27,476 bases of DNA, taken from the IMG/VR virus record IMGVR_UViG_3300020185_000206, positions 1-27,476 of that record. One strand, 5' to 3'. Below, in pieces: positions 13,028 through 27,476 of the stretch; the first letter of the stretch is position 1; every line of letters starts with the position of its first letter. A program made the position numbers and the translations under genes. Below the pieces are notes generated by a model. That model worked only from the letters and a program-made list of their open reading frames with translations, was not told where the DNA came from and did not search any database. The DNA is from a virus.

Positions 13028-13945
13028 ATGAAAAAGAAACTAAACTTTTCGTATGATTTAACAGCACTTGACGCATTCTCATTAGAGAGAGCAGACGAGA
13101 TGTTGTTGAACTCGGTCTTGGGTAGTGTTACTCCAAGATACGCAAAGATTTACCCAAATATGAAGGGTACATCTATGAAAATCGGTGTTATGGCTAATGA
13201 CCCCGCATGGCAGAATGGATTGACTTGTGGTCTTTCTGAGTCAGGTACTACTGACATTACACAAGTAGAGATTGTTGGTTGTTACAAATCAGCAAGATTA
13301 AACAACTGTGGAAACGAGTTGAGAGACTACTTCTTGTCACAGGCTTTATCTAACTCATTATACCAAGAGAACATTCCTTTTGAGGAGTTGTTCATTCAGG
13401 ACTTGAGTAACAGAGCATCTGACTTTATGGAAGTTGAATTATGGCAGGGAACATCTTGTGGTATCAACGGTATCGCTGACTTAGTTGTTGCTGGTGGAAC
13501 TGACGGTGGTGCTTACACTGCTTTAACTGTTGATAACGCTGTTGACGTGTTGAACTCAGTTATTCTTCAATTACCTGCAAAGGTTCAAAGAAGAACTGAT
13601 TTGACTGTCTTCTTGTCATTCGCTGACTACAGAGCATTCATCGCTAACTTATCAAAGACTTCATCTATGAACCTATTTACTTTAGGTGATGAGTCAGGAT
13701 TATCAACTGAGACTACTGTCTTCTTACCAGGTTCAAACATCGCTGTTGTTCCTACACAAGGTCTTGACGGATTGAATACGATTGTATGTGGACCTTCACA
13801 GGACATTCTTATCGGACTTTCTGCTGACGATGGTATGGCAGTTAGAGTTCAGTATGATTTCTTCAACGATACAGTTGCATCAATCACTAAAGTAGGATTC
13901 GGTATTGGAGTCCACGAAGTCAGTAATTTCGTATTCCTTGACTAA
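13028..13945 (+). CDS. Major capsid protein
   Basis: I call this 305-residue protein the major capsid protein because it directly follows protease and scaffold genes and has a capsid-like composition. It begins MKKKLNFSYDLTALDAFSLERAD. A long amphipathic region (FEELFIQDLSNRASDFMEVELWQGT) may be the spine helix. Later come strand-like stretches (RTDLTVFLSFADYRAF; PGSNIAVVPTQGLDG) and the C-terminal VRVQYDFFNDTVASI. Codon choice leans more toward TTC, GAC and AAC than in neighbouring genes, consistent with strong expression. The start is preceded by an A/T-rich leader without Shine-Dalgarno, as in Bacteroidota. The fold cannot be proven from sequence alone, but no other gene in the genome is a better candidate. 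Confidence 0.82.
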   Translation: MKKKLNFSYDLTALDAFSLERADEMLLNSVLGSVTPRYAKIYPNMKGTSMKIGVMANDPAWQNGLTCGLSESGTTDITQVEIVGCYKSARLNNCGNELRDYFLSQALSNSLYQENIPFEELFIQDLSNRASDFMEVELWQGTSCGINGIADLVVAGGTDGGAYTALTVDNAVDVLNSVILQLPAKVQRRTDLTVFLSFADYRAFIANLSKTSSMNLFTLGDESGLSTETTVFLPGSNIAVVPTQGLDGLNTIVCGPSQDILIGLSADDGMAVRVQYDFFNDTVASITKVGFGIGVHEVSNFVFLD

Positions 13946-13987: not shown

Positions 13988-14533
13988 ATGAGTTGTTTTA
14001 TATCAAATGGTCTAGAATTAGGATGTAGAGACGCCTCTATCGGAGGAATAAAAGCAATTTGGGTATTAGGTGCAAGTGGAAATACTATTTCAAGTGTTAC
14101 TACTGATGCTGACGACCAAATTACAGCAATCTCAGGTTCAGGAATTATGTACAAGTTTGAACTCGTTAAGGGTTCATCAAGTATGAGTGAAACTGTATCT
14201 GTTAATGCAACATCTAATTCAATCGTATACCAACCAAGTGTTACGATGAACTTACCTAAGTGGGATAACAATTTAAGAAACGTTTTCTTTGAATTGACTA
14301 AACAACCTGAATTCTTCTGTGTTGTTGAAGACAATAACGGACGTTACTGGTTCCCCGCACAGGTTAATGGTTTGTCAGCAAACGACGCTACCCTTCAAAC
14401 AGGTGCTGCGTTCACTGACGCTAATGGTGCGACAATTACAGCGACTGGTGGTGAACCTGCTGCTGTTAGAGAAATTGAGGTTGCGACCACAATTGACGCT
14501 GTCTTCACAGGTATTACCTTTGACGCAGTCTAA
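13988..14533 (+). CDS. Probable major tail tube protein
   Basis: This 181-residue protein follows the capsid gene after a short A-rich leader. It starts MSCFISNGLELGCRDASIGGIKAIWVLG, continues with YKFELVKGSSSMSETVSVNA and ends with the segment VVEDNNGRYWFPAQVNGLS. The pattern is one I recognise from small abundant virion proteins of Bacteroidota phages: GGIK near the N-terminus, E.T.SV..NA..NS..Y in the middle, then EDNNG.YW and a gain-of-charge tail. It is most consistent with a tail tube subunit. A terminator lies just downstream, as expected for the end of a highly expressed unit. A head decoration protein is the main alternative. Confidence 0.6.
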   Translation: MSCFISNGLELGCRDASIGGIKAIWVLGASGNTISSVTTDADDQITAISGSGIMYKFELVKGSSSMSETVSVNATSNSIVYQPSVTMNLPKWDNNLRNVFFELTKQPEFFCVVEDNNGRYWFPAQVNGLSANDATLQTGAAFTDANGATITATGGEPAAVREIEVATTIDAVFTGITFDAV

Positions 14534-23375: not shown

Positions 23376-23405
23376 TTTGACCATTTTCCAAAAATTGACT
23401 ATTTA
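23376..23405 (+). promoter_or_regulatory. Candidate promoter of structured RNA 1
   Basis: TTTG at 23376-23379 (-33-like) is followed after 18 nt by ACTATTTA at 23398-23405, with TTGAT next, so transcription would start near 23411. TATTTATTGATA also occurs before the gene at 24064. No ORF with a normal start lies directly downstream. It diverges from the minus-strand promoter at 23342. Confidence 0.45.
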
Positions 23406-23410
23406 TTGAT

Positions 23411-23600
23411 AACTCCAACAAATAAATGGGAGTATCTTTAAATCTCGTTATGGTCGTTCTTGGGACTTATGACCAACTGAGAGCCTCAAAACTACTAATG
23501 TAGTTAAGAATGGTAGAGTCCTTGATGCAGCACTAGCATCTAGCAGGGACTTAATTATTCTACCTAAAACTACATTATCTTATTAATCTAGTTTGGTAAA
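23411..23600 (+). ncRNA. Candidate structured RNA 1, unknown family
   Basis: I see nested helices in this noncoding stretch. ACTCC 23412-23416 pairs with GGAGT 23429-23433. TGGTC 23451-23455 pairs with GACCA 23471-23475. TAATGTAGTT 23496-23505 pairs with AACTACATTA 23568-23577. GGTAGA 23512-23517 pairs with TCTACC 23559-23564. GTCCTT 23518-23523 pairs with AGGGAC 23545-23550 (one G-T wobble). GATGC 23524-23528 pairs with GCATC 23536-23540. The last four helices are coaxially nested, giving an 82-nt hairpin. GTAGTT 23500-23505 can pair instead with AACTAC 23490-23495, so two mutually exclusive structures exist. The 3' end is uncertain and no terminator follows directly. I do not recognise a known RNA family, and it is not a tRNA. 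Confidence 0.6.
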
Positions 23601-23618: not shown

Positions 23619-23649
23619 TTGACAACAAATCCAAAGTATAATATATTTA
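23619..23649 (+). promoter_or_regulatory. Candidate promoter of structured RNA 2
   Basis: TTG at 23619-23621, a 20-nt spacer and TATATTTA at 23642-23649 fit the Bacteroidota -33/-7 pattern. The same TTG-N20-TATATTTA layout precedes the large terminase gene. Transcription would start near 23655. Confidence 0.6.
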
Positions 23650-23654
23650 TATGT

Positions 23655-23795
23655 GAAGAACGACTGTGATACTATCTAGTAACCTGTTAATTATTTTTTT
23701 ATTATAGTTATGTTGTTTTTCAGTAGTATTCCATTTTGAGTTATTCATAGTATCACACAACCCCCCTTCAGAACGCTGTTGGGGGGTTTTATTTT
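23655..23795 (+). ncRNA. Candidate structured RNA 2, about 140 nt, own promoter and terminator
   Basis: TGTGATACTAT at 23665-23675 pairs perfectly (11 bp) with ATAGTATCACA at 23747-23757 and closes a U-rich loop of about 71 nt. A strong terminator begins two bases later. A consensus promoter lies at the 5' end, and no ORF longer than a few codons fits in this strand. Promoter, closing stem and terminator make a self-contained small RNA unit. The loop contains a T7 run and few secondary pairs. The function is unknown: an antisense or sponge RNA, a replication RNA and a packaging RNA are all open. Confidence 0.6.
23759..23795 (+). terminator. Strong rho-independent terminator
   Basis: AACCCCCC (23759-23766) pairs with GGGGGGTT (23781-23788), then a TT/TT internal loop, then CAG (23769-23771) with CTG (23776-23778) around loop AACG. 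A T-rich tail runs to 23795. It is the most GC-rich hairpin in this AT-rich genome and ends structured RNA 2 just before the gene at 23819. Confidence 0.88.
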
Positions 23796-23805
23796 ATCAA
23801 CACAA

Positions 23806-27137: not shown

Positions 27138-27476
27138 ACTAATTAAAGAACAACCTGACAATTCAGTTGATTTGGTTATTACATCACCCCCTTATGCTGA
27201 TATAATAAATTATGGAAAGAACATATCAATAAAAAAACCACAAGAATATTGTGATTGGTTATTACCCCTTTTTAACGAGATACAGAGAGTTTTAAAACCA
27301 AGTGGTAGTTTCATACTTAACATCAACGATAATTGCAAGAATGGACTTAGAAACCCTTTTATATACGAATTGATATATAGAAGTCAGAAGGAGACCAAGT
27401 TAAAGTTCTACGACACTTATATCTGGCACAAAAGAAATGGTATACCAAATGGGGGTAAGAAAAGATTTAGAAATAC
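27112..27476 (+). CDS. DNA methyltransferase (N4C/N6A type), 5' part
   Basis: This is the N-terminal part of the methyltransferase whose remainder is at 2-697. It starts at the ATG at 27112 (MILHGDCFEL), with the catalytic TSPPY at residues 24-28. The frame runs off the window end, where the last 246 bases duplicate positions 1-246. Joined at the overlap, the product is 271 residues. The start is supported because typical family members begin with a short MILHGDC-type strand ahead of DLVITSPPY. It overlaps the microgene upstream by 26 nt. Confidence 0.88.
   Translation, partial: MILHGDCFELIKEQPDNSVDLVITSPPYADIINYGKNISIKKPQEYCDWLLPLFNEIQRVLKPSGSFILNINDNCKNGLRNPFIYELIYRSQKETKLKFYDTYIWHKRNGIPNGGKKRFRN
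27231..27476. repeat. Terminal overlap, copy 2 (circular join)
   Basis: This is the partner of 1-246, with four mismatches out of 246. It should be removed once when the molecule is circularised, leaving about 27,230 bp. Confidence 0.9.

Follow-up and report, generated by a model that had tools for sequence, protein, structure and literature searches.

We interpret positions 23409–23583 on the plus strand of the window, by which we mean the whole analysed stretch of 27,476 nt, as a real structured RNA, named RNA1 here. Judged by its compensatory helices, its own promoter and the lack of a conserved reading frame it qualifies as a structured noncoding RNA gene, and the searches described below lead us to regard it as a previously unlisted RNA family of Bacteroidota-type phages. 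As the best explanation we tentatively propose a stand-alone, bistable phage RNA gene that acts on a conserved, probably host, partner. The duplicated-arm layout makes refolding directly testable, and RNA1 belongs to phages of a phylum in which RNA biology has been little explored.

For the region 23376–23600 a minimum free energy of −59.5 kcal/mol was calculated in comparison to a shuffle mean of −40.1 kcal/mol (z −5.0; 0 of 200 shuffles as good). The 5′ end of RNA1 is derived from the promoter and the 3′ end is the point where conservation stops. On the plus strand the RNA is predicted to begin with hairpin P1 (23412–23433, ACUCC/GGAGU, arms 23412–23416/23429–23433), which contains one compensatory pair and a variable loop; in the relatives L028 and L113 the arms read ACUUC/GAAGU with a longer insert. 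Hairpin P2 (23443–23482) follows with 5 and 7 bp (23443–23447/23478–23482 and 23451–23457/23469–23475) and a conserved loop, UCUUGGGACUU. P3 (23488–23505, AACUAC-UAAU-GUAGUU) combines an invariant stem with a loop that varies across the homologues; it contains the first copy of AAAACUAC (B1, 23488–23495) and the exchangeable strand b (23500–23505). The long hairpin P4 (23496–23577) is built from P4d (23496–23505/23568–23577), P4a (23507–23514/23554–23561), P4b (23516–23523/23545–23552) and P4c (23524–23528/23536–23540) with a 4-nt bulge, UAGC, and its P4d helix excludes P3. A hairpin of four helices at this position had been claimed in the initial annotation; the hairpin stands, with helix lengths of 10, 8, 8 and 5 bp in place of 10, 6, 6 and 5. 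The smaller helices noted ahead of it are retained as P1 and P2 on the transcript side, whereas those using bases before about 23409 include promoter DNA and probably lie outside the RNA, because the transcript should start near 23409–23413. Two 8-nt repeats run through the fold. Both copies of GGGACUUA, one covering the P2 loop and the first base of the P2 3′ strand (23462–23469), the other the P4b 3′ strand and the next base (23546–23553), are identical in all homologues, and so is the second copy of AAAACUAC (B2, 23566–23573). Overall, loops and linkers of RNA1 are as strictly conserved as its stems. A second switch, in which the upstream GGGACUUA loop would pair with GAGUCC, was dropped at a predicted pairing probability of 0–0.04.

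Three homologues were found, giving only three distinct sequences including the window. The window is the whole IMG/VR record (G000). RNA1 occurs in near identity in L022 (G001) and as covariance-model matches in L028 (G003) and L113 (G004), the latter two records being partial. Between the window and L022, 207 of 208 positions are identical over 23376–23583, in comparison to only 368 of 456 in a flanking gene, so that RNA1 is conserved far better than its surroundings. A portal-protein scan yielded L023–L028, of which L028 has RNA1, and L113 was obtained by a pattern scan with the conserved core. A first 16-mer scan of IMG/VR had fallen on a variable helix and returned only the L022 contig and chance matches. 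The covariance-model scores of RNA1 are 148, 145.5 (L028) and 143 bits (L113), with no other credible score in about 1.7 Mb of loci scanned; weak model matches in L112 and L129 lie inside coding sequence and were rejected as homologues. The contigs of L022 and L028, which stem from different samples, end at 13569 and 14551, respectively, both exactly 10 nt past the second AAAACTAC copy. This shared end may mark a divergence point of co-occurring phages sharing the RNA.

The statement that no known family has this layout holds up in the collections searched. At gathering scores Rfam 15 gave no match in the window or in any of nine related loci, and relaxed thresholds returned only chance-level matches (E 0.7–5) around RNA1 in the window and L113. 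BLAST of RNA1 against phages and plasmids was without a match, a 21-base pattern did not find the RNA1 core in bacterial genomes, and no relative of the portal encoded in bacterial genomes was detected by the scan used. A published description was not found in the literature searched, the coverage of which was incomplete. In being strongly conserved, structured phage RNAs of unassigned role, GOLLD and ROOL, which are large phage-associated ornate RNAs (PMC12286853), are similar to RNA1; in contrast to it they are far larger and listed in Rfam, and no match to them was obtained here.

The covariation analysis suggested along with the first description of the element supports a structured RNA. 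Counted by hand over the three distinct sequences, 11 base pairs differ in both bases with pairing retained, and three further pairs change to or from a G-U wobble. Two-sided changes fall on P4a (1), P4b (1), P4c (4) and P4d (3), and in L028 one G-C pair of P2 became A-U and one U-A pair became U-G with pairing kept. RNAalifold recovered P2, P3, P4a and P4b in an unguided consensus. The sample of three distinct sequences is small, and the shuffle control made with two of them is weak, 62 of 500 shuffles pairing at least as well as the real sequences. Helix halves varying without compensation had been named as evidence against the proposal; the only cases found were the pairs at the outer end of the alternative helix of L028.

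With respect to the strand, 158 of 162 pairing cells are kept on the plus strand versus 136 on the minus strand, and P1 to P4c contain no broken cells on the former and 21 on the latter. Nearly all wobble pairs, including several invariant G-U pairs, are workable only on the plus strand, which argues that the element is an RNA made from this strand. A protein-coding gene was rejected as no open frame is kept in the homologues, and no small reading frame is conserved on either strand. The only plus-strand frame with a start codon that is common to the window and L113, 25 aa long in the window (ATG 23425), is without its start in L028 and carries a stop there. L028 and L113, the RNAs of which are otherwise 97% alike, differ in P2 by three changes, every one of them stem-preserving. 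Since the changes in L028 keep P2 paired but destroy the frame, selection would act on the plus-strand RNA and not on a peptide.

The alternative pairing proposed for GTAGTT (23500–23505) was confirmed: AAAACTAC occurs at 23488–23495 and 23566–23573, the segment can pair with either copy, and this arrangement is kept in all homologues. At least two repeated 8-mers in the core were found in only 12 of 2000 dinucleotide shuffles. As both copies of AAAACUAC are present in every homologue and never vary, the core of the alternative pairing is beyond covariation testing. The flanking pairs of P4d do covary (AAU with AUU in the window, UCA with UGG in L113), while in L028 just one of four extra flanking pairs forms. 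The P3 and P4d folds are predicted at −45.0 versus −46.7 kcal/mol for the window to 23583, −52.1 versus −49.3 for the window to 23605, −66.5 versus −64.5 for L028 and −67.9 versus −69.7 for L113. With a difference of about 3 kcal/mol at most they are close to isoenergetic in these models. A conserved bistability of RNA1 is thus plausible from the folding models, and it may be used as a switch.

The window represents a near-complete phage genome of about 27.2 kb. Its ends, 1–246 and 27231–27476, overlap over 246 nt with 98.4% identity and few mismatches, from which we take the record to be a circularly assembled genome with strain variation; this would also explain why its methylase gene is split. 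The encoded proteins comprise a large terminase (Terminase_3), a terminase small subunit, tail and head proteins, a DNA methylase, a holin and a portal with relatives in flavobacterial (Nonlabens) phages, and promoters of the Bacteroidota-typical form TTTG-N20-TATATTTG precede genes in the window and its relatives. No tRNA or tmRNA was found in the window. Four small genes run leftward from 23336 and everything from 23819 round to 21728 runs rightward; RNA1 is located in the 482-nt gap between these units. In the window and in L113 the late operon for packaging and morphogenesis spans almost the entire genome in the same direction as RNA1. The GC skew tracks gene direction and is uninformative.

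The promoter-like element noticed upstream in the initial annotation is conserved in relatives. This predicted promoter P_A (TTGACC-17-TATTTA, 23377–23405, plus strand) directly precedes RNA1, about 6–8 nt before its presumed start, and for this reason the transcript should start near 23409–23413. Counterparts read TTGACT-17-TATTTA in L028 and L024 and TTTACA-17-TATATT in L113, and the pattern TTGAC-18-TAT[AT]T[TA] occurs in the 27-kb window only at P_A and at 23619. There a second predicted promoter, P_B (TTGACA-17-TATATT, 23619–23647, plus strand; 11 of 12 consensus positions), lies between RNA1 and the late operon, with TTGACT-17-TATATT as its equivalent after RNA1 in L113. A predicted intrinsic terminator precedes the late operon (23759–23796, plus strand); its hairpin loop and second stem arm are conserved in L003, the contig of which starts inside this terminator.

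The relatives point towards exchange of RNA1 as a unit. Between L028 and L113 the RNA is identical at 219 of 226 positions (97%) within unrelated flanks: the 120 nt upstream align with 62 of 112 identities, and the neighbouring zinc-ribbon protein is 21% identical. L023 has no RNA1 despite its near identity to L028 (portal 91%, two neighbouring proteins 97–100%, another early protein 88%). RNA1 being shared by L028 and L113 in unrelated flanks and missing from L023, we conclude that it is an exchanged cassette. In L024 and L026 the same slot holds, behind the same promoter, genes for an Arc-like repressor and for a replication initiator (phrog_270, 4e-12). Inside the initiator gene of L024 two perfect 23-bp repeats with 24-bp spacing (14229–14275) resemble origin iterons. 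L113 has RNA1 after its Arc-like gene, in the place of the initiator. The RNA thus behaves like a swappable module of a slot for control or replication. The slot of L023 (8120–8600) holds a different noncoding structured stretch (z −3.1) with long-range inverted repeats, one perfect over 12 bp and one of 82% over 17 bp. Searches of the phage collection and of Rfam at gathering scores returned no counterpart of this stretch.

In the tentatively preferred reading, RNA1 would be transcribed from P_A and fold into P1, P2, P3 and the long P4 hairpin; as a cassette it is swapped into and out of the slot that separates the divergent early genes from the late operon. Once the 3′ part is made, GUAGUU would leave the upstream AAAACUAC, its partner in P3, and pair with the downstream copy to form P4d, a handover that could allow co-transcriptional folding or a change of shape upon binding. 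The folded RNA would most likely act in trans by binding a conserved partner, which is probably part of the host machinery, because its loops and linkers are as strict as its stems across phages with widely diverged proteins. The conserved loops showed no convincing or consistent complementarity to the phage's own genes. RNA1 may also be linked to replication or early control.

With lower probability, and in our judgement improbably, RNA1 serves the late operon as a cis-acting leader, with P_A transcripts reading through the terminator at 23759–23796 while P_B transcripts lacking RNA1 stop there. It would act either on RNA polymerase in the manner of put RNA or by the exchange of P3 and P4d. 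In the window and L113 RNA1 sits at the 5′ end of the co-directional operon, and in the window the terminator that is conserved in L003 lies between it and the first gene. No terminator lies directly 3′ of RNA1, so its transcript probably continues in the direction of the late operon, and this speaks for a leader. Against this, a terminator is absent in L113 between RNA1 and the genes that follow it, P_B and the equivalent promoter of L113 supply the operon with a start downstream of RNA1, the close relatives L023 and L024 have the same operon without RNA1, and no pairing between RNA1 and the terminator was found. The put RNA of HK022 measures about 65–70 nt and forms two stem-loops. A published precedent is given by HK022 put RNA, which acts as an antiterminator in cis and by itself, as a phage RNA, suppresses both pausing and termination (PMC9378689). 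Similar to put, RNA1 is a phage RNA beside a promoter with conserved sequence and structure and, in the window, a terminator downstream. Unlike put it comprises about 175–230 nt with a long P4 and lacks a following terminator in L113; the promoter proximity is shared, whereas the two-stem-loop layout is replaced by four helices over at least 165 nt with a gap of 7 nt between P2 and P3.

Ranking next, and unlikely in our estimate, is RNA1 as the core of an RNA-based replication module that replaces the initiator protein: the P_A transcript would fold, stay on the template or recruit host replication proteins, and prime or control DNA synthesis. A model for this is ColE1 RNA II, a replication primer RNA of about 550 nt under the control of antisense RNA I, with which RNA1 shares a promoter-driven structured RNA and mutually exclusive helices. 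The comparison is suggested by the slot, which holds the Arc-like repressor and the initiator with its repeats behind the same P_A in L024 and L026, holds RNA1 after the Arc-like gene in L113, and is exchanged in the manner of a replication module. No phrog_270-type initiator is present in the RNA1-bearing records, among which the window alone is near-complete. Of the window proteins that were compared with Pfam or PHROGs, none was recognised as a replication protein. On the other side, the equivalence of RNA1 and initiator derives from position alone, and the L113 and L028 records are partial. Sequence downstream of RNA1, where synthesis would presumably start, is not conserved between the window and L113. 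Unlike ColE1 RNA II there is no evident antisense promoter or conserved downstream origin, minus-strand promoter-like sites at the locus being only weak (9/12), and no clear DnaA box was found in the locus. Both put RNA and ColE1 RNA II serve here as comparisons of how RNA1 might work, not as memberships. The cassette behaviour and the initiator-slot position pose the question whether a phage initiator protein is replaceable by an RNA module. Should RNA1 do so, which we consider rather doubtful, small phages would start or control replication with a bistable RNA and swap protein and RNA modules in a promoter-anchored slot.

A function at the DNA level, for example as a single-strand origin or as a site of attachment or packaging, with an incidental RNA fold is very improbable: the common end point of two independent contigs and the position upstream of the terminase genes would suit it, but the wobble changes and invariant G-U pairs suit only a plus-strand RNA, the conserved promoter sets the transcript start just before P1, and the contigs of the window and L113 continue through the site.

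Downstream of RNA1 a second, terminated RNA segment was noticed at 23650–23796, with its own promoter at 23619–23647 and closed by GUGAUACUAU/AUAGUAUCAC. The FopS family of small RNAs (Rfam RF04319) is known from Bacteroidetes (PMC11697453), and its weak match (22.6 bits, well below the gathering score of 56) concerns the 3′ part of this second segment (23713–23798) and not RNA1. Elsewhere in the window, between 2937 and 20077, several structural (tail and surface) proteins contain Ser/Thr-Pro repeat runs such as SVTPTPSITPS.
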